Shown here: piece by piece, positions 16,372 through 42,436 of the stretch
How positions within the stretch are numbered: the stretch's first letter is position 1
Layout: each line of letters starts with the position of its first letter
Assembly (NCBI RefSeq): GCF_029945895.1
Contig: NZ_JAQSDL010000097.1
Coordinates: forward strand, 18,732 to 82,731
Direction of reading: 5' to 3'
DNA from: Polaromonas sp.
GTDB taxonomy: Bacteria; Pseudomonadota; Gammaproteobacteria; Burkholderiales; Burkholderiaceae_C
Length of the DNA: 64,000 nt
The notes under the pieces: model-generated
Told to the model about the DNA's origin: nothing
Databases searched by the model: none
The model's input: the letters and a program-made list of their open reading frames with translations, nothing else
Made by a program: the position numbers and the translations under genes

Positions 16372-18153
16372 ATGAAACAAAGCACCCTTCGCATCGGCAG
16401 CGCCTCGGGCTTCTGGGGCGACAGCGAGTTCGCCGCCGCCCAACTGGTGCAGCGCGGCAACATCGACGTCCTGGTGTTCGACTACCTGGCCGAAATCACC
16501 ATGTCGCTGCTCAGCCGCGCCAAGGCCAAGGATCCGGCACTGGGCTATGCACCGGATTTCGTGACCACCCTCCAGCCCCTGATGAAGGAGATCAAATCAC
16601 GCGGCATCAAGGTCATTGCCAATGCCGGCGGCGTCAACCCGTCCGCCTGCCGCGCCGCGCTGGTGGCGGCAGCGCTGGCCGAAGGCGTCGACCTGAAAAT
16701 CGCCGCCGTGCTGGGCGACGACCTGATGCCACAGGTGGACGCGCTGCGCGCCGCCGGCACCCGGGAGATGTTCTCCAGCAGCCCCTTCCCCGCCAAAGTG
16801 ATGAGCGCCAACGCCTACCTCGGCGCCTTCCCGATTGCGGCCGCGCTCGATGCCGGCGCCGACATCGTGGTCACCGGCCGCTGCGTCGACAGCGCGGTCA
16901 CGCTGGCGCCGCTGATCCATGCCTTTGGCTGGACCGTCGCCGACCACGACCGCCTGGCGCTTGGCAGCCTGGCCGGCCACCTGATCGAGTGCGGCACGCA
17001 GGCCACCGGCGGCAACTACACCGACTGGGACACGGTGCCGGGCTGGGACGACATGGGCTTTCCCATCGCCGAGTGCCGCGCCGACGGCAGCTTCGTGATC
17101 ACCAAGCCCGAAGGCACCGGCGGGCTGGTCTGCCCCTCGACCGTGGGCGAGCAGATGCTGTACGAGATCGGCGACCCGCGCGCCTACATCCTGCCCGACG
17201 TGGTGTGCGACTTCACCGGCGTGACGCTGACGCAAGTCGGCCCGAACCGCGTCGAGGTCAAGGGCGCGCGCGGCCTGCCGCCGACCGACCAGGCCAAGGC
17301 CAGCATCACCTACGCCGACGGCTTTCGGGCCATGAGCCTGTTCATGATCGGCGGCATCGATGCCGGCGCCAAGGCGCAGCGCGTCGGCGCCGCCATGCTG
17401 GCGCGCATGCGGCGCCACTATGCGCAGCGCGGCTGGCCCGACTTCACCGAAACCTGTGTCGAGGCCATCGGCGCCGAAGACACCTACGGCCCCCATGCGC
17501 GGCCCGATGCGCGCGAGGTGATGCTCAAAGTGGGCGTGCGCCATCCAGTCAGGGATGCGCTCGAACTGTTTTCGCGCGAGGTGGCGCCCATGGCGCTGAT
17601 GTCGGCCCCGGCCATCACCGGTTTCACCGGCGGCCGGCCCAAAGTGCAGCCGGTGGTTCGGCTGTTCTCCTGCCTGGTGCCCAAGACGCGGGTGGCCGCC
17701 AGCATCGACATGGGCGAGCAGACCGTGGCAGCACCCCAGTTGAACGGCCAGACGTTTGATCCGGCAACCCTGCCCCAGGTCGGCGGCCCCCTGCCCGCCG
17801 CCGACGCCTTTGCGCGCGGCACGCGCACCGTGCCGCTGGTCAAGCTGGCTTGGGGCCGCAGCGGCGACAAGGGCGACGCCGCCAACATCGGCATCCTCGC
17901 GCGCCAACCCGACTACCTGCCCTTCATCCGCGCCGCCCTGACCGAGCAGGCGGTGGCGGCCTGGTTCGCCCACCTGGTCAAGGGCAGCGTGCGGCGATTC
18001 GATTTGCCCGGCACGCACGCGCTGAACTTTCTGATGCACGAAGCCCTGGGCGGCGGCGGCATCGCTTCGGTTCGCATGGACTCGCAGGGCAAAGCCTTTG
18101 CCCAGATGCTGCTCGATTTTCCAGTCCCGATTCCAGCCGACCTGGCGCTTTGA
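16372..18153 (+). CDS. atuA: AtuA family protein (DUF1446), acyclic terpene utilization
   Basis: This 593-residue protein starts LRIGSASGFWGDSEFAAAQL and contains IANAGGVNP and TGRCVDSAV, hallmarks of the AtuA/DUF1446 core. A C-terminal AtuA_C-type segment follows (from about residue 480, KLAWGRSGDKGDAANIGI). AtuA is required for growth on citronellol/geraniol in pseudomonads; its exact reaction is not settled, and a role around 3-hydroxy-3-isohexenylglutaryl-CoA has been discussed. AGGAG precedes ATG 16372. This is the best single marker for the pathway of this operon. Confidence 0.88.
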   Translation: MKQSTLRIGSASGFWGDSEFAAAQLVQRGNIDVLVFDYLAEITMSLLSRAKAKDPALGYAPDFVTTLQPLMKEIKSRGIKVIANAGGVNPSACRAALVAAALAEGVDLKIAAVLGDDLMPQVDALRAAGTREMFSSSPFPAKVMSANAYLGAFPIAAALDAGADIVVTGRCVDSAVTLAPLIHAFGWTVADHDRLALGSLAGHLIECGTQATGGNYTDWDTVPGWDDMGFPIAECRADGSFVITKPEGTGGLVCPSTVGEQMLYEIGDPRAYILPDVVCDFTGVTLTQVGPNRVEVKGARGLPPTDQAKASITYADGFRAMSLFMIGGIDAGAKAQRVGAAMLARMRRHYAQRGWPDFTETCVEAIGAEDTYGPHARPDAREVMLKVGVRHPVRDALELFSREVAPMALMSAPAITGFTGGRPKVQPVVRLFSCLVPKTRVAASIDMGEQTVAAPQLNGQTFDPATLPQVGGPLPAADAFARGTRTVPLVKLAWGRSGDKGDAANIGILARQPDYLPFIRAALTEQAVAAWFAHLVKGSVRRFDLPGTHALNFLMHEALGGGGIASVRMDSQGKAFAQMLLDFPVPIPADLAL

Positions 18154-18191
18154 CAAACGCCCATCAACAACCCAAGACGGAGACACCCACC

Positions 18192-19385
18192 ATGAGCACC
18201 CCAGCCACCACCGCCATTGCCAACACCGCTTCCGCAAGCCTGCGCGAGCGCATCCGCGACGTGCAGGAAGCCGCCCGCGGCGTCACCACCCTGTACCCGC
18301 GCAGCTACATCCTCCAGTGCATCAAGGAAGACCGCTTCCCCGATGAGCTGTGGCAAAAGCTCGGCGAGTTCGGCCTGCTCGGCCTGTCCGTCCCGGAAGA
18401 GTACGGCGGCTCCGGCGGCGGCGTGCTGGAGATCACCGCGCTCAACGAGGCGCTCGCTTTGGCCGGCGTGCCCACACTGTTCCTGGTCGTCACCGGGCTG
18501 GGCCGGGTGCCGATCATGCGCCACGGCACGCCCGAGCAAATCAAGAAATACGTCACGCCCACCTGTACCGGCGAGAAGAAGCTGTGCTTCGCCATCACCG
18601 AACCCAATGCCGGCACCAACAGCTTTGCCATGACCACGCTGGCCACACCGGACGGCGATGGCTGGATGCTCAATGGCCAGAAGGTCTTCATTTCCGGCGC
18701 GCGCGATGCCGACTACATGCTGGTGATCGCACGCACCACCAAGGCAGGCGAGGTAAAGCACCGCACCGACGGCATCTCGCTGTTCGTGCTCGACATGAAA
18801 ACGCCCGGCATCCAGCTGGCGCAACTCAACATCCAGGTCGAAACTGCCGAGCGCCAGTACATGGTGTTCTTTGACAACGTCAAGCTGCCCGCCGACGCGC
18901 TGATCGGCGAAGCCGGCAAGGGCGCCAAGCTGATGTTCGAAGGCCTGAACTCGGAGCGCCTGCTGGCCGCCGGAGCCGCCATCGGCCTGGGCGACTATGC
19001 GCTGGCCAAGGCGGTGGCCTATTCGAAGGAGCGCAAGCCCTTCGGCAAGCCGATCGGCTCCTACCAGGCACTGCAGCACCGCATGGCGCAGGCCAAGGCG
19101 CAGATCGAGGCAGCGCGCCTGATGACCTACAACGCCGCCGAGCGCTTCGACGCCGGCGAGGATGCCGGCGCCCACGCCAACATGGCCAAGCTGCTGGGCT
19201 CGCAAGCGGCGGTGGCCGCCGTCGAGGCCGCGCTGCAAACCCACGGCGGCTACGGCTTTGACCGCGACTACGACATCATTACGCTGTGGCCCATGGTCCG
19301 CCTGCTGGAAATCGCGCCGATCAACAACGAGATGCTGCTCAACTACATCGGCGAACATGTGCTGGGCTTGCCGAAGTCGTACTGA
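18192..19385 (+). CDS. Acyl-CoA dehydrogenase
   Basis: This 397-residue ACAD has AITEPNAGTNSFAM and NGQKVFISG flavin contacts and THGGYGFDRDYD near the C-terminus. Glu373 in LLEIAPINNEM aligns with the common loop base, so unlike the 1158 and 9448 paralogs it uses the standard ACAD arrangement. It closes the operon, 38 bp after atuA. The substrate is unknown; a later beta-oxidation step of the isoprenoid chain is plausible. Confidence 0.86.
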   Translation: MSTPATTAIANTASASLRERIRDVQEAARGVTTLYPRSYILQCIKEDRFPDELWQKLGEFGLLGLSVPEEYGGSGGGVLEITALNEALALAGVPTLFLVVTGLGRVPIMRHGTPEQIKKYVTPTCTGEKKLCFAITEPNAGTNSFAMTTLATPDGDGWMLNGQKVFISGARDADYMLVIARTTKAGEVKHRTDGISLFVLDMKTPGIQLAQLNIQVETAERQYMVFFDNVKLPADALIGEAGKGAKLMFEGLNSERLLAAGAAIGLGDYALAKAVAYSKERKPFGKPIGSYQALQHRMAQAKAQIEAARLMTYNAAERFDAGEDAGAHANMAKLLGSQAAVAAVEAALQTHGGYGFDRDYDIITLWPMVRLLEIAPINNEMLLNYIGEHVLGLPKSY

Positions 19386-19425
19386 GCCGATGGCCGTCAT
19401 CCCCGGCACCGACCACCCGGACCGA

Positions 19426-19486
19426 GGTTCGCAACACGGTCGAGGCCGCCGGCCGCCGTTTTCGGGGTGGCCTGAGCTTGCGAACC
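19426..19486. repeat. 9-bp inverted repeat in the intergenic gap
   Basis: GGTTCGCAA at 19426-19434 is matched by its complement at 19478-19486, with GC-rich sequence between. It lies between the last operon gene and the second TetR. There is no T-run, so it is not an obvious terminator; it could be a regulator site or a weak hairpin. Confidence 0.35.
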
Positions 19487-19520
19487 GGCACCATTGGCAG
19501 GCGTCGCTACTCGTTCGCTG

Positions 19521-20174
19521 ATGATGTGTGCCGCGCGCTCCCTCCCCACTTTCGCAGCAGCCAAGCGGCCGCGAGGCCGCCCACGCAAGACGCCGCAAGA
19601 GCGAAATGAAGGCAACCGCCGTCAAGATATCGTCAAGGCCGCGGCCAAACTGTTTCGACGCAACGGCTTTAACGGAACGAGCACGCGTGCCATCGCCTGC
19701 GCCGCAGGCATGCATTCCGGATCACTGTTTTGTCACTTCAAAAGCAAGGATGCGCTGTTGTATGAAGTGATGCAGGAAGGCATGCGCAGCGCGCTGGCGC
19801 GCCAGATGATCGTGCTGCTTGCCGAACATGACGCTGCGACCACACTGCGGCAATTGATCCGTTCGCATTTCCACACGCTGCTGGGATCGAACAGCGATTT
19901 CATGCAGGCAGTGCTCTACGAGTCGCGCTCTCTCACGACGCGGCAGCGCAGCGTCATCGCAAAGCTGCAAGGCGATTACGAAGCGGCGTGGACGCCTGTG
20001 CTCCAGGAACTGGCATCGGCCGGCTGCCTGCAAGCCGAGGTGCCCCTGGCGCGCCTTTTGATCTTCGGCGCGCTGAACCGGTCAGTACAGTGGTTCGACC
20101 CCAAGAAGGGAACCTCGCTTGATGACCTGACCGATGCAGTGATGGCGCTGTTCATACGCAAGAAGCCGCGATAG
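19521..20174 (+). CDS. TetR/AcrR family regulator, paralog of the one at 413-1012
   Basis: This protein of about 217 residues has a basic RPRGRPRKTPQ N-terminal arm, an HTH (STRAIACAAGMHSGSLFCHF) and a ligand domain sharing VLYESRSL and GALNRSVQWF with the TetR at 413. The start is uncertain: ATG 19521 is used here; a TTG at 19494 would add nine residues, and neither has a clear ribosome site. Two related repressors at the two ends of the operon suggest layered control. Confidence 0.8.
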   Translation: MMCAARSLPTFAAAKRPRGRPRKTPQERNEGNRRQDIVKAAAKLFRRNGFNGTSTRAIACAAGMHSGSLFCHFKSKDALLYEVMQEGMRSALARQMIVLLAEHDAATTLRQLIRSHFHTLLGSNSDFMQAVLYESRSLTTRQRSVIAKLQGDYEAAWTPVLQELASAGCLQAEVPLARLLIFGALNRSVQWFDPKKGTSLDDLTDAVMALFIRKKPR

Positions 20175-20374
20175 TCAGCATCCGTCCGGCCAACCTGTTC
20201 ACAGGGACTTCCCGACGTGCTGTCCTGCAGCCTACCCAGCGAGCCGGTCAGACGGACGAGTTGTTGCCGCATAGCTGGCAACCTCACGCCGGAATCCGTT
20301 GACCGCCAATGCACCGACCCATTCATCGCTTCAATTTGTGTTCCCAACGCGTTGCGGAATAATGAAAACTGGTG

Positions 20375-20394
20375 CTTAATGAACGTTCGTTAAG
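20375..20394. promoter_or_regulatory. Candidate TetR operator palindrome
   Basis: CTTAATGAACGTTCGTTAAG is a near-perfect 20-bp palindrome (one mismatched pair) centred 37 bp before the TetR start at 20422. Its length and AT-rich arms are typical of TetR-family operators, so autoregulation is likely. An AT-rich stretch just downstream may hold the -10. Confidence 0.6.
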
Positions 20395-20421
20395 TAGCGT
20401 ACAAAATACAGGTGATATCCA

Positions 20422-21036
20422 ATGGCGAAGCCAGCTTTCAGGCATACGCGCAAAGAGATCCTCGGGCTGTCAGTTCCGCTCTTCGCAACGGTCGGATTTG
20501 ACGGGGTTTCGATGCGTGATATCGCGGCTGCCGTGGGTGTGACGCCTGCCGCCCTCTACCACCACTTTTCGGACAAAGAGCAGCTCTATCTGGATGCGGT
20601 CGGCCATGCCTTCGAAGAAAAAGTGGGGCCCTTGAAGTCCCTTCTGGAAGGTGGAGAAAACCCCTGGGATCGGCTCGAAGCGTTCGTCGCACTCTTCACG
20701 CGCATGCTCGCCAGGGAAAAGGACTTCAGACGCCTGATGCAATGGGTGCTGCTGGACAGCAATGAGCAGCGCCTGCAAAGCTTGGTGGACTGCGTCTTTC
20801 GAGACCTGTTTAGCGCACTGCACAAGCTCGCCGGTGAGCTCGCCCCGGTCTATGACGCCCACCTTCTTGTCGTTTCGATGTTCGGTCTGGTGATCTACCC
20901 TTTTGAAACCCAGTCGGTGCGGCGCTTCCTGCCGGGCTACCAGCAACAGCACGAAGACCCCGAAGCCATTGCGCGGCATGTCGTCGGCTTGCTGCGCAAT
21001 GGTCTTGGCATAAACAACGAGGAAAAATCACATTAA
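20422..21036 (+). CDS. TetR/AcrR family regulator of the repeat-protein/efflux module
   Basis: This 204-residue TetR has an HTH VSMRDIAAAVGVTPAALYHHFSDKEQLY. The C-terminal domain contains a TetR_C segment with FGLVIYPFETQSVRRF. It differs from the two other TetRs in the window. It lies 65 bp before the repeat-protein gene and upstream of an RND pump, a common layout for regulators that sense lipophilic compounds. Confidence 0.87.
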   Translation: MAKPAFRHTRKEILGLSVPLFATVGFDGVSMRDIAAAVGVTPAALYHHFSDKEQLYLDAVGHAFEEKVGPLKSLLEGGENPWDRLEAFVALFTRMLAREKDFRRLMQWVLLDSNEQRLQSLVDCVFRDLFSALHKLAGELAPVYDAHLLVVSMFGLVIYPFETQSVRRFLPGYQQQHEDPEAIARHVVGLLRNGLGINNEEKSH

Positions 21037-21101
21037 CGCCCGGCCCAGGGCAAACGTGTGGAGCAGACGTCCCTGCTCCATGACTGCAAGGAGAAAAAGC
21101 G

Positions 21102-21689
21102 ATGAAACTGCAAAAATGGTTGATCCTGTCTGCATTGGTGGTGGGCGCAAGTGCGCAGGCTGCGGGAGAACCCGCAGCAAAGGCGGGCGAGGCGGCCAAG
21201 GTGTCCGTGCTGCAGAAAGCGGAGGAAGGCGCGAAGAAAGCGGCCGAGGAAGCTAAAGAGGCAACGCGCAAAGCCGCAGAAGCCGCCCAGCGGGCTGCAG
21301 AGAAGGCTGAACAGGCAGTCAGTGACGCCTCGCAGAAAACTGCGGAAGCCGCCCGGCAGGCAGCGCGAGACGCTGATGAAGCTGCCAAAAAGGCTGTACG
21401 GAAGACCGCAGAAGCGACCAAGAAAGCGACCGCAGCCACCAAAGAGGCTGCACAGAAGGCAGAAGAAGCCGCTAAAAAAGCAGCCGTAGCCACTAAGGAA
21501 TCTGCACAGAAAGCCGGGGAAGCCGCCAAAAAAGCGGCCAAGTCGGGCAAGGAGGCGGCGCAGAAAGCGGCCGAAGCCACGCGGGAAGCCGCACGAAAAG
21601 CCATGGAAGCCACCCGGGAGGCTGCCGACAAGGCGCTTGAGGCAACCAAAGAAACGGCCAAAAACGTCAAGGATGCCGTAACGAAGTAA
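21102..21689 (+). CDS. Secreted Ala/Lys/Glu-rich repeat protein, LEA-like
   Basis: This 195-residue protein begins with a signal peptide (MKLQKWLILSALVVGASAQA, likely cut after AQA). The mature part is almost wholly an 11-residue-type repeat of the form (A/T)xEAAxKAAEAA with Lys, Glu, Arg and Ala and virtually no aromatic residues. That predicts a long amphipathic or single alpha-helix as in group 3 LEA proteins and apolipoprotein-like helices. It should act in the periplasm, perhaps coating membranes or protecting proteins. AAGGAG precedes the start. A strong terminator follows. Confidence 0.75.
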   Translation: MKLQKWLILSALVVGASAQAAGEPAAKAGEAAKVSVLQKAEEGAKKAAEEAKEATRKAAEAAQRAAEKAEQAVSDASQKTAEAARQAARDADEAAKKAVRKTAEATKKATAATKEAAQKAEEAAKKAAVATKESAQKAGEAAKKAAKSGKEAAQKAAEATREAARKAMEATREAADKALEATKETAKNVKDAVTK

Positions 21690-21695
21690 CCCTTG

Positions 21696-21725
21696 TCGGG
21701 CAGGCTGCCTGCCCGATAGTTTTTC
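21696..21725 (+). terminator. Rho-independent terminator
   Basis: TCGGGCAGG at 21696-21704 pairs perfectly with CCTGCCCGA at 21708-21716 around a 3-nt loop, followed by TAGTTTTTC. It ends the message of the secreted repeat protein and separates it from the next gene. Confidence 0.82.
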
Positions 21726-21776
21726 AGATCGTTGCGCTTTTATTTTTTATTTTTATCACTGATAGAGAGGAATCCA

Positions 21777-22214
21777 ATGTCTGAATCCAACACGCCCGGC
21801 TCCATGAGCAAAGACAAACTGATCGCCGACATGAAGCGCATCGTCGCCGATGCCGATGAGCTCCTGCGCGCCACCGCCGATCAAGCGGGCGAGAAGGTCG
21901 CCGGCTTGCGCACCCGCCTTGAGGCAAACCTGAAGGCAGCCCCAGGCCGCCTTGCCGAGTTCGCGGCTACGGACGTCAACAAAACTACGCAAGACATCCG
22001 GGACGCGCTGCAAAAAATCTCGGATGCGGCCACCCAATCTTCTGAAGCCGCCAGGGAAGCAGCGCAGAAAGCCGAGGACTCGGTCAAAAAAGCAACTGAG
22101 TCTGGCAAGGAAGCAGCCCAGCATGCGGCAGAAGCCGCCAGGGATGCCGCCAACAAGGCACTGAATGCAATCACGGAGATGGCCAGGAAAGCCAAAGACG
22201 CCATCAACAAGTAG
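21777..22214 (+). CDS. DUF883-like N-terminus fused to LEA-like repeat helix
   Basis: This 145-residue protein starts at ATG 21777 with AGAGAGG upstream. Residues about 10-60 (KDKLIADMKRIVADADELL, then GLRTRLEANL) resemble the ElaB/YqjD/DUF883 family. In that family a C-terminal membrane anchor follows; here there is none. Instead residues about 85-145 carry the same EAAxKAxDxxKKA repeat as the upstream protein. It has no signal peptide, so it should be cytoplasmic. The shared repeat suggests the two genes are a compartment-split pair. Confidence 0.72.
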   Translation: MSESNTPGSMSKDKLIADMKRIVADADELLRATADQAGEKVAGLRTRLEANLKAAPGRLAEFAATDVNKTTQDIRDALQKISDAATQSSEAAREAAQKAEDSVKKATESGKEAAQHAAEAARDAANKALNAITEMARKAKDAINK

Positions 22215-22227
22215 AGGTTTTGGCAAG

Positions 22228-22259
22228 CACGGCCTGTCCGCATGAGCGGGCGGGCCGTG
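22228..22259 (+). terminator. GC-rich hairpin, possible terminator
   Basis: CACGGCC at 22228-22234 pairs with GGCCGTG at 22253-22259, with further partial pairing inside. There is no U-tract after it, so it is a weaker terminator or an RNA stabiliser. Confidence 0.4.
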
Positions 22260-22400
22260 GGAGGCACGCACTTTAGATCAATTCCCCCGCGGGTGCCTGA
22301 GGCGATGCCATGTCCGTTGCGGCCGCACAGGTTGTTGGCATTTTTCATGTGCGGTACAGCCATGACATCAGGTTGTTCATATCAGCACTTCGCAAGATTT

Positions 22401-22414
22401 TCCAGCATGCTGGA
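22401..22414. promoter_or_regulatory. Perfect 14-bp palindrome upstream of RND pump genes
   Basis: TCCAGCATGCTGGA is a perfect palindrome 31 bp before the adaptor-protein start. It may be an operator for the local TetR or another regulator. The 230-bp region between 22215 and 22445 otherwise contains no clear gene, although the adaptor reading frame stays open upstream to 22242. Confidence 0.35.
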
Positions 22415-22445
22415 TGAATCAACCAATAAAAAAAGTACCCTCCTT

Positions 22446-23519
22446 ATGAAAAGAAAACACTTGCTCCCGTCCCTGGCGCTGGGCGCACTCCTGAGCGCTT
22501 GCGGCAAAGCGCCGGAGGCCCCTGCTGCATCGAATACGACAAGCCATCCCCTGCCGGTCATGACCGCGTCCACCGGGGCGCCGCTCGAATATACGGCGGT
22601 CGGCTCGGTGGTGTCGGACCAGCGCGTCGAGGTCGCCTCGCGGCTGAGCGGCTATATCCGCGACATCCTGGTGCAGGAGGGCGACCGGGTGCGGCGCGGG
22701 CAGTTGCTGGCCCGGCTGGACGCGTCGGACGTGGAAGGCGGCATTCGCCAGGGCCAGGCGGCGGGCGGCGCGGCAGAGGCGGCGCTGCGCGATGCACAGA
22801 TTGACCTGGAGCGCTTCGAGCGTTTGTTCGAGCGTGGCAGCGTCTCGGACAACGAATTGCGCAAGGTGCGCCTGAAGTTCGAGGCCGCGCGCGAGGCCCG
22901 TAACCAGACGCGCGCCGGGCTCGACACGGCGCTGGCCCAGCGCGCCTACGCCGAAATCACCAGCCCGGTGGACGGCGTGGTGGTGGCGCGCCACAAACGA
23001 ACGGGCGACCTCGCCCTGCCCGGCATGCCGCTGCTGACCCTGGAGTCGGGCCGCGGCCTGTTGTTCGAGACCTTCGTGGCGGAGGGCCAAGTCGCCGCCA
23101 TCGCGGCCGGCCAGCCGGTGCAAGTCAACATCGACGGCGTGCCCGCGCCGCTCAAGGGCACGGTGAGCCGGGTGGTGCGCTCGGGCGACCCGGTCTCGCG
23201 CAGCTACCAGGTCAAGATCGCCCTGCCCGAAACGGCGGGGCTGATGCCCGGCATGTTCGGGCGCGCGGCGTTCGGGCTCGGTGCGAGCCCGGCGCCACTG
23301 GTGCCCAGACGGGCGCTGGTCGAACGTGGCGGGCTCACCGGTGTCTTCGTGGTGGACGGCGAAGGCCGGGCACGCTTTCGCTGGCTGCGCATAGCCCGCG
23401 AGTGGCCCGATCAGGTCGAGGTGAGTGCTGGTCTGGCCGCCGATGAGCGCTTCGTGGCAGCGGCTACACCGGCCCTGCGCGAGGGCGACCGCGTCACCGC
23501 CGCGAAGGAGGCGCAATGA
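22446..23519 (+). CDS. RND efflux periplasmic adaptor (membrane fusion) lipoprotein
   Basis: This 357-residue protein has a lipobox (ALLSAC, Cys19), so it is a lipoprotein anchored in the inner membrane. It carries a biotinyl-lipoyl half-motif (GYIRDILVQEGDRVRRGQ), an alpha-hairpin (about 95-150) and a beta-barrel domain. It links the RND transporter to the outer membrane channel. ATG 22446 gives a clean lipoprotein signal; the open frame extends upstream. It overlaps the transporter gene by ATGA. Confidence 0.88.
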   Translation: MKRKHLLPSLALGALLSACGKAPEAPAASNTTSHPLPVMTASTGAPLEYTAVGSVVSDQRVEVASRLSGYIRDILVQEGDRVRRGQLLARLDASDVEGGIRQGQAAGGAAEAALRDAQIDLERFERLFERGSVSDNELRKVRLKFEAAREARNQTRAGLDTALAQRAYAEITSPVDGVVVARHKRTGDLALPGMPLLTLESGRGLLFETFVAEGQVAAIAAGQPVQVNIDGVPAPLKGTVSRVVRSGDPVSRSYQVKIALPETAGLMPGMFGRAAFGLGASPAPLVPRRALVERGGLTGVFVVDGEGRARFRWLRIAREWPDQVEVSAGLAADERFVAAATPALREGDRVTAAKEAQ

Positions 23520-26500
23520 ACCAGCACAAGCTCAACAGCGCCGGCCGCCTGGCGAATCTCTTTGTCACCTCCAAGCTGACCATTTTGTTCATGCTGGCCT
23601 GCATCCTGCTGGGGCTGCTGGCCGTGACGCTGACCCCGCGCGAGGAAAACCCCCAGATCGTGGTGCCCGGCGCCCAGGTATGGGTGACACTGCCCGGAGC
23701 CTCTGCCGAGGAGGTGGAGGAGCTGGTGATCCGCCCGCTGGAGGGCATCGTCAAACAGATTGCCGGCGTTGATCACACGTATGCGACCGCCGTGAATTCG
23801 ATGGGCGTGCTGATGGTGCAGTTCAAGGTCGGCGAGGACAAGGAAAAATCGCTGGTCAAACTCTACGACCGGGTGCTGGGGCAGCGCGAGCGCCTGCCTG
23901 CGGGCGCGGGCGAGCCGCTGATTCGCAGCGTGGATGTGGACGACGTGCCCATTGTCACCGTCACGCTGGCCTCCGAGATCTACGACGATTACGCCCTGAA
24001 GCGTCTGGCCGACCGCCTGATGGAAGGACTGCGCAGCCTGGACAAGGTCTCTGCCATTTCCGTCAAGGGCGGGCGCGACCGGGAACTGCGCATCGAACTG
24101 GACCCGCAGCGCCTGCAGGCCTTCGGCGTCACGCTGGACCAGGTGCATGCCACCCTGCGCGCAAGCAATGTCGCCGCGCCCCTGGGAACGGTCGTGCAAC
24201 AGGGCCAAAACCGCCAGGTGTTCCTGGACGGCTTTCTGAGCTCGGCGCAAGACCTCAAGCGCGTGATCGTGGGCAGCCATGCCGGGCGCCCGATCTATCT
24301 GGGCGATGTGGCACAGGTCGTCGACGGTCCGCCGCAAGAGCGCACGCACCTGAGCCGTCTTACATTTGGCCCGGCCGATGCGCGCTTTGGCAAGACGCAG
24401 CAGGCGGAGATGCCGGCCGTCACGCTGGCCGTGGCCAAGAAAGCCGGTAGCAACGCCGTCTTTGTTGCCAACGATGTGCTGGAGCGCATCGAGCGGATGA
24501 AGGCCCAATTCGTACCGGCAGGGGTCGAACTGGTCGTCACCCGCAATGACGGCGAGAAGGCGGATGCCGCCGTCAGCGGGCTGATCGAGCACCTGGGTAT
24601 CGCGGTGCTGGCCGTGTTTCTGGTGACTGCCGCGTTCCTGGGCCTCAAGGAGGCACTGATCGTGGGCGTGACCGTGCCGCTGATCCTGGCCCTGACCCTG
24701 GGCGCTGCCTATCTCTTTGGCCTGTCCATCAACCGCGTTTCGCTGTTCGCGCTCATCCTGTCGCTGGGGCTGCTGGTCGATGGCGCGATTGTCGTGATCG
24801 AAAACATCCACCGCAACTACAGCCGTCTTGGCAAGCAGGACAAACGCCGGGTCACGGTGCAGGCCACCAACGAAATCGGTAACCCCACCAACCTGGCGAC
24901 GCTGGCGGTGATGTTGGTTTTCGGATCGCTGCTGGTGGTCAGCGGTATGCCGGGGCAGTATTTCTACCCGGTGGCCTTCAACGTGCCGGTCGCCATGGCG
25001 GCCTCGCTCTTGGTGGCCTACGCGGTGGTGCCCTGGGCCGCCAACCGCTGGCTCAAGCCCGGTGAAGGGCACGATCTGGAAGACCACGATACCCAGGACC
25101 GCCTGCACCGGTTCTACCGCGCCATCATGTCGCCGCTGGTGGATCGCTCGCGCAGCCGCTGGCTCGTTTTTCTGTTGGCGGGGCTGGCGATCGCCTTGTC
25201 GTTGCTGCAACCCGCTTGGCAGCTCCTGCGCCCGGCCGGTTTGAGCGGGCCGCAGTCCTGGTTCGGCGTTGAGCTGGCCATGATGCCCAAGGACGACAAG
25301 AACACCTTCAACATCACCCTGGACCTGCCCGCGACCGCGCCGGTGGAGACGACCGACCAGTTCGCGCGCGAAGTCGGTGCGCTGCTGCGCGAGAACGCCT
25401 ACGTTCGCAACTACCAGAGCTGGATCGGCGAGGCCGGCGTGATCGACTTCAATGGCTTGCTGCGTGGCGCCGGCAACAAGCAGGGGGCGCACGTCGCCGA
25501 GATCCGCGTCAACCTGCTGGACAAGTCCGATCGGAGTAAGACCTCGATCGACATCGTGCGCGAATTGCGGCCTGCGGTGCAGGCTGTGGCCGCGCGTTAC
25601 CCCGGCAGTACGGTGCAACTGGTGGAAGACCCGCCGGGGCCGCCGGTGCGCGCTACCGTCCTGGCCGAAATCTATGGCAAGGATCTACCGCAGTTGCGCG
25701 CGCTGTCCGCGCAGGTCAAAGCGGCCTTCCAGCAGACGCGCGACATGGTGGAGGTGACCGACTCCGAGGCCCGGGACGTCTACCAGTACCGCCTGACGGT
25801 TGACCGGGAAAAGGCCGCGCTGTCCGGGCTGAGCGTGGCCGAAGTAGCGGTCGCGCTGCGTCGCCTGATCGATGGTGAGGAAATGGGTCGGGCCCGCATC
25901 GCCGGCGAGAAGAACCCGGTGTCCATCCGCTTGCAGATTCCCCGGCGCCACCAGATCGACCCCGCGTTGCTGGCACGCGTGTCTGTGACCAACCGGCAGG
26001 GCCAGCGGGTGCCGCTGTCCGAGCTGGTGCAAGTCGTCCCCGGCGCAGTCGACCGGGCGATCTCGCACAAGGATGGCGAGCGCGTCACCTACGTCGGCGG
26101 CGAACTCGAATCCACCGCCCCCGTCTATGCCGTGCTCGACCTTGACCGGCGACTGGACGGCTTGCTGCTCGCCGATGGCAGCCGCCTCACCACCGGCAAC
26201 CTGCGCCTGAACCCGGTGGCGCCCGACACCCTGGAGGGCCCGCGCCTGCTGTGGGACGGCGAACTGCGCATGACGCTGGATACCTACCGCGACATGCTGG
26301 GCGCGCTGGGCCTGGCGCTCACCTTCATCTTTCTGGTGCTGGTGGCTTATTACCAGTCGTTCAGCCTGCCGCTGGTTGCCATGGCGGCGATCCCGCTGGG
26401 ACTGGCCGGCATCTTTCCGGGGCACTGGCTCATGGGGCAGCCCTTCACGGCCACGTCCATGATCGGCATCATTGCGCTGGCCGGGGTGGTGGTGCGCAAC

Positions 26501-26797
26501 TCGCTGCTCATCATCGATTTCGTGCTGGATTACCGGCGCCAGGGCATGGACTTGCGCGAGGCCATCCTCGAAGCTGGCGCGGTGCGCCTACGGCCCATCC
26601 TGCTCACCGCTTTGGCCATCGTGCTGGGCAGCGCCGTGATGCTGACCGACCCGGTGTTCGGCGGGCTGGCGATCTCGCTGATTTTTGGCACGCTGGCCTC
26701 CACCGTGCTCACCCTGGTCGTGGTGCCGCTGTTGCTGTATCTGCTGCTGCGCTACAAGGACCAGAAAGAAGCAAGCCTGAAAAAAGGAACCCCATGA
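23516..26797 (+). CDS. RND efflux transporter, inner membrane permease
   Basis: This 1093-residue HAE/AcrB-superfamily permease has two repeats of six TM segments with large periplasmic loops. TM1 is near residue 20 and TM4 reads GLLVDGAIVVIENI. Classic AcrB has two Asp here (DD); this protein has DG, keeping only the first proton-relay Asp, as in some RND subfamilies. The TM10 region reads GVVVRNSLLIIDFV. The substrate is unknown; solvents or terpenoids are plausible because of the neighbours. It is coupled to both adaptor and outer membrane genes by overlaps. Confidence 0.92.
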   Translation: MNQHKLNSAGRLANLFVTSKLTILFMLACILLGLLAVTLTPREENPQIVVPGAQVWVTLPGASAEEVEELVIRPLEGIVKQIAGVDHTYATAVNSMGVLMVQFKVGEDKEKSLVKLYDRVLGQRERLPAGAGEPLIRSVDVDDVPIVTVTLASEIYDDYALKRLADRLMEGLRSLDKVSAISVKGGRDRELRIELDPQRLQAFGVTLDQVHATLRASNVAAPLGTVVQQGQNRQVFLDGFLSSAQDLKRVIVGSHAGRPIYLGDVAQVVDGPPQERTHLSRLTFGPADARFGKTQQAEMPAVTLAVAKKAGSNAVFVANDVLERIERMKAQFVPAGVELVVTRNDGEKADAAVSGLIEHLGIAVLAVFLVTAAFLGLKEALIVGVTVPLILALTLGAAYLFGLSINRVSLFALILSLGLLVDGAIVVIENIHRNYSRLGKQDKRRVTVQATNEIGNPTNLATLAVMLVFGSLLVVSGMPGQYFYPVAFNVPVAMAASLLVAYAVVPWAANRWLKPGEGHDLEDHDTQDRLHRFYRAIMSPLVDRSRSRWLVFLLAGLAIALSLLQPAWQLLRPAGLSGPQSWFGVELAMMPKDDKNTFNITLDLPATAPVETTDQFAREVGALLRENAYVRNYQSWIGEAGVIDFNGLLRGAGNKQGAHVAEIRVNLLDKSDRSKTSIDIVRELRPAVQAVAARYPGSTVQLVEDPPGPPVRATVLAEIYGKDLPQLRALSAQVKAAFQQTRDMVEVTDSEARDVYQYRLTVDREKAALSGLSVAEVAVALRRLIDGEEMGRARIAGEKNPVSIRLQIPRRHQIDPALLARVSVTNRQGQRVPLSELVQVVPGAVDRAISHKDGERVTYVGGELESTAPVYAVLDLDRRLDGLLLADGSRLTTGNLRLNPVAPDTLEGPRLLWDGELRMTLDTYRDMLGALGLALTFIFLVLVAYYQSFSLPLVAMAAIPLGLAGIFPGHWLMGQPFTATSMIGIIALAGVVVRNSLLIIDFVLDYRRQGMDLREAILEAGAVRLRPILLTALAIVLGSAVMLTDPVFGGLAISLIFGTLASTVLTLVVVPLLLYLLLRYKDQKEASLKKGTP

Positions 26798-28089
26798 ACC
26801 GCTCGATAAAAGTTCGCGGCCTGTTGCCGCTGGCGGCTCTGGCCGCTGCGCTGCTTGCCGGCAACGCCGCCGCCGAGTCCTTGCAACAGGCATGGGACAT
26901 TGCACTGACCGTTGACCGTGGGCTCAAAGCCTCACGCGAAAGCACCGCAGCCGCCGCAAGCCTGCTGGAGGCCGCGAAATCCGCCCGCCTGCCCAACCTG
27001 GCGCTGGAGGCGGGCTATACCGCCCTCGATAAGGCACCGGCGGCCAGGGTTGATTTTTTTGGCCAGTCGCTGCAAATGCCGCTGGCACAGCGGGAAAGCG
27101 CCGCCTACAAGGCCATGGCGACGCTGCCGCTCTACACCGGTGGTCGCATTGAGCGCGGCATTGACGCGGCCACGGCAGGCATGGATGCGGCGCGGCTGGG
27201 CGAAAGCGCCGACGCACAGAACCTCAAACTGCGCGTGGCGGATGCCTATGTCAACGTGCTGCGCGCCAGCCGCATGCTGAAGGTCACTGAGAGCCACGTC
27301 GCCAGCCTGCAGGCCCATGCGCGTGACGTGGGCAACCTGCACGAGCAGGGCATGGTGGCCAAAAGCGACCTGCTCTCGGTGCAGGTGGCCCTGGCCGATG
27401 CGCGCCAGCGCCATCTGCAGGTGGCCAATGGGCTGGATCTGGCGCGCGCCGCCTACAACCGCCTGCTGGGGCGGCCGCTGGATCAGTCCGTCTCGCTCGA
27501 CGACCTGTCGCCCGAGGCGACGCAGGCTCAGTTTCACGCCCTGACCGAGCGGGCACTGGCCCGGCGCAGTGAGCTGGCGGCACTGGCGCGTCAGATTGAA
27601 GCGATGCGCCACCAGGCCGCCGCCGTGCGCGGCGAAACCGCCCCGCAGGTCGCGCTGTCCGGCGGTTACGGCTACCAGGAGAATCGCTATCAGGTACACC
27701 CGGGGCAATGGATGGTCACCCTGGGGGTCAAGTGGAGCCTGTTCGATGGCGGCGTGGCCGGCCACCGCGCCAGCGCTGTCGAGCGCCAGGCCGCAGCATT
27801 GACGGAGCAGCGCGACGACCTGGCCTCCATCATCGCCCTGCAGGTCCGCCAGACCTGGCTGGATGTGGAAGAGACCCGCAAGCGCCTCATCGTCACCCAG
27901 TCGGCCATCGCCCAGGCCGAGGAGAACCTGCTCGTGGCGCGCGACCGCTATGCCAACGGCCTGTCCACCCATACCGAGGTTCTGAATGCCGAGACCTTGC
28001 GCACGGGCAGCGAGAGTAACCACGCCAATGCGCTGTTTGATGCCGCACTGGCGGGGCTGCGGCTCAAGCGCGCCACAGGCGAACTCTGA
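26794..28089 (+). CDS. TolC-family outer membrane efflux protein
   Basis: This 431-residue protein has a signal peptide (LAALAAALLAGNAAA, cut near 27) and two OEP repeats. TLPLYTGGRI and WSLFDGG mark the beta-barrel strand regions, followed by long coiled-coil helices. It is the outer membrane duct of the tripartite pump. ATG 26794 overlaps the permease stop (ATGA). Confidence 0.9.
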   Translation: MNRSIKVRGLLPLAALAAALLAGNAAAESLQQAWDIALTVDRGLKASRESTAAAASLLEAAKSARLPNLALEAGYTALDKAPAARVDFFGQSLQMPLAQRESAAYKAMATLPLYTGGRIERGIDAATAGMDAARLGESADAQNLKLRVADAYVNVLRASRMLKVTESHVASLQAHARDVGNLHEQGMVAKSDLLSVQVALADARQRHLQVANGLDLARAAYNRLLGRPLDQSVSLDDLSPEATQAQFHALTERALARRSELAALARQIEAMRHQAAAVRGETAPQVALSGGYGYQENRYQVHPGQWMVTLGVKWSLFDGGVAGHRASAVERQAAALTEQRDDLASIIALQVRQTWLDVEETRKRLIVTQSAIAQAEENLLVARDRYANGLSTHTEVLNAETLRTGSESNHANALFDAALAGLRLKRATGEL

Positions 28090-28574: not shown

Positions 28575-29417
28575 CTACCGGCGAGGCCGGTCACCCGCCA
28601 GCGTGATGCGGTGCATGACCCGGCGAAAACCGTGGTAATCGTTAACCGGGTAGTGGTGCGTGCAGCGGTTGTCCCAGAGCGCCATGGAACCCACCTGCCA
28701 GCGGAAGCGGCAGGTGAACTCTTCCTTCTTCTGGTGCGTGAATAAAAATTGCAGCAGCGGCGCGCTCTCCTCTTCGGTCATGCCGACGAAGCGCGCGGTG
28801 TGGGCGCAGTTGATGTACAAGGCCTTGCGGCCGGTTTCCGGATGAGTCCGCACCACGGGGTGCTCGGCCTCGTAATGGCTGTGCTGGTCGGCGCGTCCGG
28901 CTTCGGCCAGGCGGTCTTCGCGGGTGCGCGTCACATCAGCCTTGGCCGAGGTGTTGACCGCCGCCAGGGGATCGAGCAGCCGCTTCATGCCATCCGACAA
29001 GGCCTCATAGGCCAGCACCTGGTTGGCAAACAGCGTGTCGCCTCCGTAAGGCGGAACCTCGCGCGCAAGCAGCACCGTGGCCATCGGCGGCTGCGCCAGG
29101 TAGGCGGTATCGCTGTGCCAGACACCACCGAAATTGACTTTTTCGTGCGCCAGCTTCTTCACTTCGATGATGACCGGAAAGTCCGAAATGCCGCTGACGA
29201 ACGGGTATTCAACCGGTGTGCCAATGGCCTGGGCGAAGGCCAGAAATTGTTCAGAGGTGAGCTGCTGATCACGCAGAAAGACGACGCCGTGCTCTAACCA
29301 GGCACTGCGCAGCGTCGCCAAGTCATGCGGTCGCAACGGCTGCGACAGGTCGAGCCCGGAGAGTTCCGCACCCAGTGCGCCAGACAGTCGGGTCACGATC
29401 AATGCCAAGGCGCTCAT
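28575..29417 (-). CDS. TauD/TfdA-family Fe(II)/2-oxoglutarate dioxygenase
   Basis: This 280-residue enzyme has iron ligands His101 and Asp103 in WHSDTAY and His255 in DNRCTHHYPVNDY, with the 2-oxoglutarate-binding Arg at 270 (VMHR). These are nearly the positions of E. coli TauD. It hydroxylates a small organic acid or ether, sulfonate or phenoxy acid using O2; the substrate is unknown. Its ATG overlaps the stop of the CoA-transferase gene, so the two are translated together and probably act on one substrate family. Confidence 0.88.
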   Translation of the reverse strand: MSALALIVTRLSGALGAELSGLDLSQPLRPHDLATLRSAWLEHGVVFLRDQQLTSEQFLAFAQAIGTPVEYPFVSGISDFPVIIEVKKLAHEKVNFGGVWHSDTAYLAQPPMATVLLAREVPPYGGDTLFANQVLAYEALSDGMKRLLDPLAAVNTSAKADVTRTREDRLAEAGRADQHSHYEAEHPVVRTHPETGRKALYINCAHTARFVGMTEEESAPLLQFLFTHQKKEEFTCRFRWQVGSMALWDNRCTHHYPVNDYHGFRRVMHRITLAGDRPRR

Positions 29418-30661
29418 GCTGACACCTCCGCATCGGCGGCCACCGACACCGCTGCGCCACTGGCCAGCAAGGACGCCAGCGCGCTTGCATCAAAGCCGCA
29501 TTCGCGCAGCACCGATTCAGTGTGTTCCCCCAGTCGCGGCGCGGGCGCCAGCTTGCTGACGTCGTAACCCACCCAGCGCGCCGGCGCGCCAAAGGTGCGC
29601 ATGGCTCCCTCGCTCGGGTGCTCGACCTGCTGAAAGAAGCCCACCGCCGCCAGGTGCGGGTCATCCAGCAGGGACTCGATGGTATTCAGCGGCACCGCCG
29701 GCACGTCGATTTGTTCGAACAGCGCCAGCCAGTGCGCGGTGCTTTGCCCGCGAAGCGTCTGGCCCAAAAAGCCGTACACATGGTCAATGTGCCGCGTACG
29801 GCTGGCCAGGTCGGCGAAGCGCGGATCGACCCGCAAATCGTCGCGCTCGATGGCGCGCAGAAAACGCTGCCAGTGCCCGTCGTTGTAGACCAGCGCACAG
29901 ATGTAGCCATCGCTGGTTTGGTACGGCCGGCGCCCGGGGGACAGCAGCCGCACGTAGCCGGCGTCACCGCTGGGCGGCTCGAAGGTGTGCCCGTATAGGT
30001 GGTCCGACAGCACCACGCTGGCCATGGTCTCGAACATCGGCACGTCGATGCGACAGCCGCGCCCGGTGCGCTCGCGCCCGTACAGCGCCATGGCCACGCT
30101 GTGCGCCGCATGCAGGCCGACCATGCGGTCGGCAATCGTCAATGGCACGTAGCGCGGCTCGCTCGCCCCGCTGCGCTGCTGCAGGGCGGCAATGCCGACC
30201 GCGCCCTGGATCAAGTCATCATAAGCCGGGCGGCCTGCGTAGGGACCGTCCTCGCCGTAGCCATACACGCCGCACCAGATGATGCGCGGATTGATCGCCG
30301 ACACGCTCTCATAGTCCAGCCCGAGCCGGGCGATGGAGGCCGGGCGCAGGTTGTGCACGAAGACATCGGCGCCTTCGATCAGGCGCCGCATCGCGGCCGC
30401 GCCCTGCGGGGTTTTGAGGTCGAGCGCCACGCTGCGCTTGTTGCGGTTCAGGTGCAGAAACAGCGGACCCATGCCGGGATGGCGTCCGGGGCCGATCCAG
30501 CGGGTCGAGTCGCCCTCGGGGGATTCAATCTTGATCACGTCCGCGCCATGGTCGCCAAAAATCTGGGTGGCGTAGGGCCCCATCAGCACCGCGCTGAGGT
30601 CAATCACCCGCACGCCCGCCAGCGGCCCCGCAAGTGCCGCCTGGTCTTGTTTGTTCGTCAT
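29414..30661 (-). CDS. CaiB/BaiF (family III) CoA-transferase
   Basis: This 415-residue protein starts with a GVRVIDLSAVLMGPYATQ segment, contains NRNKRSVALDLK, and has catalytic Asp148 in RPAYDDLIQG. It transfers CoA from a donor thioester to a carboxylic acid. It is divergent from the IclR gene at 30801, with a perfect palindrome between. The CoA-transferase at 37028-38254 is a clear paralog. Confidence 0.9.
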   Translation of the reverse strand: MTNKQDQAALAGPLAGVRVIDLSAVLMGPYATQIFGDHGADVIKIESPEGDSTRWIGPGRHPGMGPLFLHLNRNKRSVALDLKTPQGAAAMRRLIEGADVFVHNLRPASIARLGLDYESVSAINPRIIWCGVYGYGEDGPYAGRPAYDDLIQGAVGIAALQQRSGASEPRYVPLTIADRMVGLHAAHSVAMALYGRERTGRGCRIDVPMFETMASVVLSDHLYGHTFEPPSGDAGYVRLLSPGRRPYQTSDGYICALVYNDGHWQRFLRAIERDDLRVDPRFADLASRTRHIDHVYGFLGQTLRGQSTAHWLALFEQIDVPAVPLNTIESLLDDPHLAAVGFFQQVEHPSEGAMRTFGAPARWVGYDVSKLAPAPRLGEHTESVLRECGFDASALASLLASGAAVSVAADAEVSA

Positions 30662-40951: not shown

Positions 40952-42436
40952 TTTTACTGTGTCATTTAATTAATCTTCCCTGCTGTCGAAGGCAGCAAGG
41001 GCACCGTGGAAGGGTACGAGCCAGCAGTGCGCCGATACTATTCGCAAGCTCGTGATTGAGGATGGGACGTGGCGCTGCGTGCGCTGGGCTTCCCCGAGGC
41101 TTGTAATGCGTGGGTAGGGCAGGCACTTGGCGTTTGGCGCTGTTTTTTTTGCCCCCGACTTCATCGGGATGACTCAACCGCTGAGCGAGCAAGAAACCGT
41201 AGGCGGCAATGCTCAGGCTGGCGTGATGATGAAAGCCGCGCCAGCCCCGGCCCTCGTAGTGGCCCAGGCCGAGGTCCTGCTTGAGGTCCTGGTAGTCACG
41301 CTCGATACGCCAACGCATCTTGGCTTCAAACACCATGCGCTCCAGCGGTGTGTCCTCGGGCAGCGTCGACAGCCAGTACTTCAGCGGCTCGGCGTCCCCC
41401 TTGGGCCACTCGATGAGCAGCCACTCGGGTTCGCGCAGTTCCTCGCGCAGGTTGTCCCGGTGCGCTGCGCGCACCCGCACGCGGGCCAAGCGCGAATGCA
41501 GCTTGGCGTTCGTGCCTTCGCGCCAGGTGACGCTGTGCCAATGCTCGGGCCCAAGCTCCAGGGCGAGGTCCTTGATCGATTGCGGATGGTGTTGCGGCCA
41601 AGCGGCGCCGCCCAGACGCAGTCGCTTGGGCACTTGCCCGCGACCCCTGTAGGCTTGCGGCGGCAGAGGCTCGCGTCCGGACGGCCAGACCGTCACACTG
41701 CCGCTCACGCCCACCACATAGCGCAGGTCCAACTCGCTCAGGCGTTCTCGAAACGCCGTGTCCACGCCGTAGCCGGCATCGGCCAGCACGCAGTGCCGGG
41801 GCGCACCCTGGCCCATCAAATGCTCGATCTGCTGGAGCGCGATCTGCGGTTTGGTCGCAAACTGCAGTGCCTCGGGAACGCCGACCTTGGCGCGTCGCGC
41901 CGAATCGTCGGCCCACTCCTTGGGCAGGTACAACTGCGAGGCCACCGGCACGCTGGCCGCCTCGCTCGCCAGCGACACGCTCACCGCCACCTGGCAGTTG
42001 TCTTGCTTGCCCAGCATCCCGCAGTACTGGCGCGCCACGCCCACCGAATGCCGGCCCTGCTTGGGGAACCCCGTGTCGTCGATGATCCACCAGCCGCCGC
42101 CCGCGAAGTCCATCAGCGGCACGACCCATTGGCACACGCGCAGCAGCATCTGCTCGTCCGACCAAGCTGCATCGGCCACGAAGTGGTTCAGCGACTGGTG
42201 CCGCGAGCGCACCTTCAGCGGCTCCACCAGCGCGGCCATGGGCTCCACGCTCTTGCGCTGCAGCGGCGACATCAGCCCGGTGCAGTACCCCCGCGCAGTC
42301 CGGCGTGCCGGTCGGCATGGCCCAGCCCTTCGCTCAGATGGGCCATGTAGCGATCAAACTCTTGCAGTTCGTCCATCACGGCCCGCCTTTCACTTGAAGA
42401 TGCTTGGATAATGCCTTGATTTATAACACAGTAAAA
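40952..42436 (-). mobile_element. IS701-like insertion sequence
   Basis: The element is about 1485 bp long. Tips TTTTACTGTG at 40952-40961 and CACAGTAAAA at 42427-42436 form terminal inverted repeats, with weaker matches continuing inward. Flanks are CTAA (40948-40951) and CTAG (42437-42440), that is, a 4-bp duplication with one mismatch; IS701-family elements make 4-bp duplications. It carries one transposase gene on the minus strand. Confidence 0.78.
40962..42272 (-). CDS. IS701-family transposase, N-terminal frame disrupted
   Basis: The readable frame is 436 residues with DDE-transposase motifs IIDDTGFPKQG, VLADAGYG and ERDYQDLKQDLGLGHYEG. The real N-terminus appears to start at ATG 42376 (MDELQEFDRYMAHLSEGL) but a run of five G (42288-42292) puts it out of frame with the rest; three G would restore RGYCTGLM. 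So the gene is either a frameshifted pseudogene or starts internally at 42272, about 35 residues short. Confidence 0.85.
   Translation of the reverse strand: MSPLQRKSVEPMAALVEPLKVRSRHQSLNHFVADAAWSDEQMLLRVCQWVVPLMDFAGGGWWIIDDTGFPKQGRHSVGVARQYCGMLGKQDNCQVAVSVSLASEAASVPVASQLYLPKEWADDSARRAKVGVPEALQFATKPQIALQQIEHLMGQGAPRHCVLADAGYGVDTAFRERLSELDLRYVVGVSGSVTVWPSGREPLPPQAYRGRGQVPKRLRLGGAAWPQHHPQSIKDLALELGPEHWHSVTWREGTNAKLHSRLARVRVRAAHRDNLREELREPEWLLIEWPKGDAEPLKYWLSTLPEDTPLERMVFEAKMRWRIERDYQDLKQDLGLGHYEGRGWRGFHHHASLSIAAYGFLLAQRLSHPDEVGGKKNSAKRQVPALPTHYKPRGSPAHAAPRPILNHELANSIGALLARTLPRCPCCLRQQGRLIK

Follow-up and report, generated by a model that had tools for sequence, protein, structure and literature searches.

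A shortened copy of a longer, apparently mobile and TetR-controlled operon encoding an RND pump and two hendecad-repeat proteins in Polaromonas sp.

We analysed a 64,000-nucleotide stretch of a Polaromonas sp. contig (assembly GCF_029945895.1, contig NZ_JAQSDL010000097.1, positions 18,732 to 82,731), referred to here as the window. Between positions 20376 and 28089 it carries a gene for a TetR-type repressor (tetR) behind a palindromic operator, genes for two alanine/lysine/glutamate-rich repeat proteins (rep1, secreted, and rep2, cytosolic), and a complete tripartite efflux pump of the resistance-nodulation-division (RND) type, composed of a membrane-fusion protein (MFP), an RND permease and an outer-membrane channel (OMF). 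This is the layout given in a preliminary description made from the sequence alone, and all of its parts are intact. Comparison with related loci adds a correction: the module is a deletion form of an operon of 11 to 15 genes. We think it fairly probable that the window holds a shortened copy of a mobile, TetR-repressed tolerance operon found in bacteria whose growth substrates are hydrophobic and membrane-active (acyclic terpenes, alkanes, cyclic ketones and aromatics).

The long form is seen on plasmid 2 of Polaromonas sp. JS666 (locus L034) and plasmid pPNAP01 of P. naphthalenivorans CJ2 (L035), where rep2 and the MFP gene are separated by five genes, in the order DUF6781, AarF/UbiB kinase, glycosyltransferase, patatin and a polyprenyl-synthetase-like gene (pps). 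In the window the sequence following rep2 corresponds up to about position 22391 to the rep2-DUF6781 spacer of these relatives, stopping just before the DUF6781 start, and from about 22421 it corresponds to the 5' end of their MFP gene, which marks a single internal deletion in the window copy. The glycosyltransferase has similarity to monogalactosyldiacylglycerol synthases above the Pfam cut-off and to diglucosyl-diacylglycerol synthases below it, and the patatin carries GTSMG and DGG motifs. The polyprenyl-synthetase-like protein (L034:20043-20852) lacks the DDxxD motif and may therefore be non-catalytic.

The DUF6781, UbiB-like kinase, glycosyltransferase and patatin genes, missing from the window copy, are present in seven other loci, five of which also have pps. 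The same five-gene order is found in L110, L114 (where the glycosyltransferase match is in two pieces) and L120, and L109 and L113 contain the middle genes with no recognisable pps. A second exporter, composed of HlyD, a double ABC ATPase and two ABC-2 permease genes, follows the OMF gene in L109, L113, L114 and L120; the OMF, HlyD, ABC and two ABC-2 genes also occur in the Zoogloea/Aromatoleum forms L125, L126 and L130, the OMF, HlyD and ABC genes are present in L118, and JS666 and CJ2 retain HlyD as stretches of only 99 and 56 residues. Other copies are shortened differently. The Polaromonas metagenome-assembled genome (MAG) containing L118 has lost another stretch but retains a patatin relic of 97 residues, and in a Thiobacillus MAG (L111) everything between rep2 and the last ABC-2 permease, itself 92% identical over 372 aa, is gone. 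The window copy is itself a mosaic, with a tetR nearest to that of L109 (94% DNA identity) and pump genes nearest to those of the Polaromonas plasmids (96-99%).

Relocation of the missing middle genes to elsewhere in the genome is not supported. DUF6781 was not found elsewhere in the window's genome, no glycosyltransferase match at E <= 1e-20 was found there (although without a positive genome this empty result is uninformative), and a patatin-like match on another contig (47% over 190 aa) is taken to be a paralogue. DUF6781 failed as a marker for the operon, since 61 of the 300 genomes examined in the order contain it; when 30 DUF6781 loci were fetched with their flanks, 22 contained UbiB, seven contained patatin and none contained RND or MFP genes. 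Those seven Burkholderiales loci (L083, L085-L087, L089, L092 and L100) have patatin, DUF6781 and the UbiB-like kinase close together without the RND part, and by its gene content this set appears to be a separate conserved gene group.

Using the TetR as bait we found 80 TetR loci, of which we counted the 17 with a TetR at least 71% identical to that of the window, the next locus being at 59%. These are the window, L034, L035, the CJ2 chromosome (L037) and L109-L121, the last group having TetR orthologues that share 71-93% identity with the window's. L118 is the locus also numbered L038, and L235, found through rep1, is left out of the count. Both repeat proteins are encoded beside TetR in 15 of the 17, with rep1 following tetR in 15 and rep2 in 16, the exceptions being L112 (rep2 only) and L119 (neither). 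Two of the 17 are near-duplicates: L116 almost repeats the plasmid segment of L035, and L120 and L037 share 97-100% identity. Independent loci thus number closer to 15, about 13 of which have both. The preliminary description had proposed testing whether the pair co-occurs with TetR and the RND pump; it does so with TetR, and the pump is seen in ten of the 17 loci. The conserved order spans Betaproteobacteria, one gammaproteobacterium (L117) and two Desulfuromonadaceae MAGs (rep2 only). Among more distant loci L131 has both repeat proteins and L122 and L128 have rep2. L235 contains tetR, rep1 and the edge of DUF6781 without rep2.

The pump is absent from L037, L111, L115, L117 and L119, and contig ends leave its position uncovered in L116 and L121. 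Both rep1 and rep2 remain at the first four of these loci, so that the suggested tie between the repeat pair and efflux does not hold, and we reject the pair as an obligate pump accessory; their survival after pump loss argues for protection on their own. The pump proteins of the window are closely related to those of the Polaromonas plasmids, with the MFP about 97% identical over 339 aa to the plasmid copies and the permease 96.8% identical to the pPNAP01 copy and 96.2% to the JS666 plasmid copy. The OMF is 79-93% identical to the relatives checked. A permease match at E <= 1e-300 is present in four of 86 genomes of the genus, including the window's own.

The rep1 signal peptide, read directly from the sequence, is of the Sec type (ASAQA-A) and has no lipobox cysteine. 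The mature protein is 36% Ala, 18% Lys and 14% Glu and contains no Tyr, Phe or Trp. It has a strong 11-residue periodicity (z = 8.6), with residues repeating at lags of 11, 18, 29, 22 and 7, which are 11- and 7-residue steps, and its hydrophobic moment of 0.32 (peak at 99.2 degrees) is about 13 standard deviations above that of shuffled sequences (0.107 +/- 0.016). This is the build of group 3 late embryogenesis abundant (LEA) proteins, an 11-residue amphipathic repeat that is hydrophilic and free of aromatics. The earlier label 'LEA-like' is not supported at the profile level, and we reject 'LEA protein' as a family name for rep1: a profile search gave no LEA_4 (PF02987) match at E <= 10 for rep1 or three relatives, whereas a synthetic LEA 11-mer matched with an E value of 0.008 (16.5 bits, which is under the 51.1-bit cut-off), with the reservation that HMMER filters drop most matches above about E 0.1 and very weak LEA_4 matches would mostly be hidden. 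Likeness to the 11-mer helices of group 3 LEA proteins, phasins and apolipoproteins thus lies in the aromatic-free Ala/Lys/Glu amphipathic pattern; the differences are the missing LEA_4 match, a Phasin_2 match of rep1 (18.7 bits, cut-off 24.9) and an Apolipoprotein match of rep2 (22.5 bits, cut-off 90) that both fall below cut-off, and the secretion of rep1.

Proteins of the DUF883 family (the YqjD/ElaB type) typically have a membrane anchor. The N-terminal DUF883 domain of rep2 spans residues 13-60 (42.7 bits, cut-off 25.4), and although a pure LEA 11-mer scores 25.2 bits with this profile, the rep2 match falls outside its repeat. Unlike typical members, rep2 has a soluble repeat helix in place of the C-terminal anchor, as had been noticed earlier: residues 66-145, which are rich in Ala, Lys and Glu, lack F, W and Y as well as any hydrophobic run. 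AlphaFold models of both proteins are all-helical at low to moderate confidence (mean pLDDT 65.1 for rep1 and 65.9 for rep2) and consist of several helices with breaks. A Foldseek search with the rep1 model found no solved structure at E <= 1e-3, and a search of solved structures by sequence gave weak matches, mainly to designed helical proteins.

Rep1 is under strong purifying selection, with dN/dS values of 0.08-0.20 against seven relatives, and its length is exactly 195 aa in 13 of 16 aligned rows; dN/dS for rep2 is 0.27-0.42. These low values indicate that both low-complexity proteins are maintained. Rep1 was found in four of 399 sampled genomes of the order, two of which (G330 and G451) have no operon around it, and no viral contigs carrying it were found. 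A further, perhaps rep1-like, secreted repeat protein (L236) is encoded in the window's own genome (contig C1, about 6526-7041 on the minus strand) and has 45% ungapped identity to rep1, compared with at most 31% in 200 shuffles. Because such proteins occur outside the operon, rep1 is probably one member of a wider group of secreted proteins, for which we found no name, that was captured by the operon. The pair is for the same reason not unique in kind.

In the window the TetR gene stands beside MFP, RND and OMF genes and is preceded by the palindromic site TTAATGAACGTTCGTTAA, to which binding is predicted; no second site within four mismatches was found in the 64-kb window (five mononucleotide shuffles average 0.2). 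All 17 loci have an operator-like site with at most three mismatches ahead of tetR, starting 42-56 bp before the gene in 15 of them and about 1335 bp before it in L034 and L110. At both of the latter an alkene reductase gene stands before tetR and the operator precedes the alkene reductase gene, showing that the site moves with the start of the operon. The more distant L125 and L126 have a site with three mismatches at 57 bp. Downstream of rep1 a long hairpin occurs at the same place in seven of 13 spacers folded (window, L034, L035, L109, L114, L118 and L121), the other six having shorter or different structures. With the T run that follows it, this hairpin may act as an attenuator, so that more rep1 is made than any other product, in excess over those of the downstream genes. 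The rep2 leader ATCACTGATAGAGAGG (21755-21770) resembles the Tn10 tet operator; several relatives read ATCACTGATCGAGAGG, and it is therefore more likely a conserved leader plus ribosome-binding site.

The operon is apparently horizontally mobile, as judged from its genomic settings. The long copies of JS666 and CJ2 are on plasmids typed as conjugative, L120 and L130 adjoin conjugation genes, and L125 and L129 share that region with L130. L116 carries a DUF3363 gene, annotated as a relaxase in pPNAP01, and L119 has an integrase. Near-identity extends between genera: Zoogloea oleivorans L116 and Polaromonas pPNAP01 are 99.98-100% identical, Herbaspirillum L120 matches the CJ2 chromosome as given above, and Zoogloea dura L129 and Aromatoleum tolulyticum L130 are 100% identical over 20,585 bases that include conjugation genes and a long form of the operon. 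For draft genomes assembly contamination is possible, and the L129/L130 identity reflects either very recent transfer of an element resembling an integrative and conjugative element (ICE) or contamination.

Catabolic genes are neighbours at eight of the 17 TetR loci (a raw count). The terpenoid pathway next to the module, remarked upon in the preliminary description, recurs: Atu genes are present at the window, L109, L113 and L114, with the operon of Hydrogenophaga aromaticivorans L109 and Rhodoferax L113 and L114 beside the same acyl-CoA dehydrogenase/second-TetR end of the terpene cluster, and L114 has 9.2 kb of the upstream terpene-cluster region in common with the window. JS666 has an FAD oxidoreductase/alcohol dehydrogenase/hydrolase cluster, which we take to include cyclohexanone monooxygenase, and an alkene reductase; CJ2 pPNAP01 has a desaturase-type hydroxylase fused to a reductase, together with GMC, ligase, aldehyde dehydrogenase and OmpW genes; L117 has Rieske and LigB genes; and L110 has an alkene reductase alone, the weakest of the eight contexts. 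Outside the 17 there is a Rieske dioxygenase at L126, an alkane monooxygenase (alkB cluster) beside a related TetR-MFP-RND set of Sphingopyxis, and a patatin/pps relic beside cyclohexanecarboxylate genes on pBN3 of P. aromaticivorans. Several host names also suggest hydrocarbon degraders. The scan covered selected open reading frames (ORFs) and 17 reference proteins, with L118 and L037 outside it and L116 ending too early.

The sequences themselves show the gene content, its conservation, the footprint of the operator, the deletion, the near-identity across distant genera and the catabolic neighbours; for the inducer, the pump substrate and the action of the repeat proteins as amphipathic protectants we infer the following. 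A hydrophobic compound would release TetR from the operator, and the catabolic neighbours suggest that it is a growth substrate or intermediate. Transcription from a promoter would then cover tetR and rep1 and in part continue beyond the hairpin to reach rep2 and the pump genes, and the RND pump would export the compound out of the membrane or the periplasm. As long, weakly hydrophobic amphipathic helices, rep1 in the periplasm and rep2 in the cytosol would cover hydrophobic surfaces exposed at membrane defects, on lipid or hydrocarbon, or on unfolding proteins, in the manner of phasins, apolipoproteins or LEA helices; the weakly hydrophobic Ala/Thr face suggests that such binding is loose and reversible. 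In the full operon the glycolipid-synthase-like glycosyltransferase, the patatin and the UbiB-like kinase are predicted to remodel membrane lipid, and the second exporter would complete the response.

Several observations weigh against this interpretation. The hydrophobic face of rep1, being mainly Ala/Thr, is weak for lipid binding, and no sigma-70 promoter match was found by a promoter scan of 20175-22450. The best operator sites of the more distant L122, L128 and L131 have four to five mismatches, so the operator is not kept through the whole TetR group, and neither rep1 nor rep2 is seen in other operon lineages (L119 and the more distant L123-L127, L129, L130 and L132). The repeat pair persists where the pump is absent, and the neighbour count is uncontrolled. 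Catabolic neighbours were not recognised at L112, L115, L119, L120 and L121 among the selected ORFs and reference searches, and at L111 the only candidates are an alkene reductase (51%) and a gene for a molybdopterin enzyme.

The repeat proteins could instead be structural. Rep1 would then be a coiled rod spanning the periplasm in the way of Lpp or the TolA helix and bracing either the envelope or the tripartite pump, with rep2 as its partner on the inner side. The 11- and 7-residue periods of rep1 fit a straight right-handed coiled-coil, and its near-constant length and the adjacency of the repeat genes to the pump agree with a rod, but the pair is kept at four loci without the pump, the low-confidence models give several broken helices and not one rod, and no lipid anchor, cell-wall motif or transmembrane segment is seen in the sequence; we regard a structural role as unlikely. 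The weak Phasin_2 and Apolipoprotein matches, together with a PhaC gene 1.6 kb upstream in L109, would suit an operon that mainly manages storage of hydrophobic carbon, in which rep2 (with DUF6781 in the full form) is a phasin-like coat of polyhydroxyalkanoate (PHA) or lipid inclusions and rep1 a secreted uptake surfactant. Given that these matches are all below cut-off, that no PHA gene is present among the other neighbours scanned (selected ORFs only), and that the pump and second exporter point outward, we think this quite improbable.

Still less probable is that this is an ordinary multidrug-efflux locus lying near catabolic genes by chance, with the repeat proteins as low-complexity passengers. 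Plasmids indeed often carry RND permeases (matches in at least 5000 plasmid records, with identity under 60% in nearly all) and low-complexity A/K/E proteins easily arise. However, the low dN/dS of rep1, the order conserved from Betaproteobacteria to L117 and, for rep2 only, two Desulfuromonadaceae MAGs, the retention of rep1 and rep2 after different neighbour deletions, and the recurrence of catabolic neighbours all speak against passengers. We prefer the shortened tolerance operon, whose window copy probably protects the cell from its own hydrophobic food.

A pump with a TetR regulator is a known kind of system. TtgABC/TtgR and SrpABC of Pseudomonas are plasmid- or island-borne solvent-efflux RND loci with a TetR-type regulator beside the tripartite pump, and the operon resembles them in this arrangement, in its plasmid or island setting and in its occurrence in degraders of toxic hydrophobic substrates. 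We know of no repeat proteins, lipid-enzyme genes or ABC exporter in the Ttg and Srp loci, and the window permease reaches no cut-off among the listed NCBIfam RND models (best 456 bits against 1250). Neither the repeat-pair combination nor the long mobile operon was found described in open-licence papers of PubMed Central, where the one paper matching DUF6781 is, judging from its title, about peptidase inhibitors of spiders. Cells of Castellaniella defragrans grown on monoterpenes are enriched in the RND proteins encoded by its monoterpene island, and transposon insertion in one of these RND genes leaves a mutant that grows less well and is impaired on limonene (PMC4109377). The likeness to this horizontally acquired island is one of context, an RND pump with terpene-degradation genes, and the portions consulted do not name repeat proteins (PMC4109377). 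An unspecified 'putative antibiotic resistance pump' has been noted on the Tn4371-like ICE of pPNAP01, and is possibly part of this operon; in the text available to us the operon is not described and the word 'patatin' does not occur (PMC2789088).

More tentatively, and with some doubt on our part, the operon may be one new to the literature that unrelated degraders of hydrocarbons and terpenes share, within Betaproteobacteria and outside them. It would couple efflux with remodelling of the envelope (glycolipid synthase, phospholipase, UbiB-like kinase and the polyprenyl-synthetase-like protein without DDxxD) and with surfactant-like hendecad-helix shields in periplasm and cytosol, the repeat pair with TetR being the part most often kept on decay. 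Degraders of oils, terpenes and solvents need to survive their own substrates, and a transferable tolerance kit travelling with catabolic genes, if this is what the operon is, would help explain how degradation plasmids become usable to a new host. The operon also offers a tractable genetic system for asking if bacterial envelopes are protected by simple helical repeat proteins, and could yield parts for solvent-tolerant production strains.

Table 1. Features of the operon and of the adjoining terpene cluster in the window.
Feature	Position	Strand	Evidence or remark
AtuA, acyl-CoA dehydrogenase (AtuD position) and second TetR	16372-20174	+	End of acyclic-terpene cluster; AtuA Pfam 5e-149
Palindromic operator TTAATGAACGTTCGTTAA	20376-20393	+	Before tetR; 8 of 9 half-site positions palindromic
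tetR, TetR/AcrR-type repressor gene, 204 aa	20422-21036	+	Pfam TetR_N 57.6 bits (cut-off 24), 1e-15
rep1, secreted Ala/Lys/Glu hendecad-repeat protein, 195 aa	21102-21689	+	Sec-type signal peptide and 11-residue period
Hairpin, 12 pairs, then TTTTT	21693-21719	+	After rep1; terminator-like
rep2, DUF883 N-terminal domain then amphipathic repeat helix, 145 aa	21777-22214	+	DUF883 profile match; no anchor
Deletion junction, five genes missing	22392-22420	+	Alignment to long operon of relatives
MFP, RND membrane-fusion lipoprotein, 357 aa	22446-23519	+	RND_mfp 205 bits (cut-off 94.9); lipobox read from sequence
RND permease, 1093 aa	23516-26797	+	ACR_tran 3.8e-155
TolC-type outer-membrane channel (OMF), 431 aa	26794-28089	+	TIGR01844 131 bits, below cut-off 225

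Downstream of the operon, on the minus strand, are genes for a TauD-type dioxygenase and a CaiB-type CoA-transferase (28575-30661), JS666 plasmid 2 carrying the same two genes at 92% DNA identity, with an IS630 element separating two dioxygenase pieces there. Further along the window there is a DDE_5 transposase gene (40962-42272, minus strand), a related copy of which (72% DNA identity) is located upstream of the operon in Hydrogenophaga L109.

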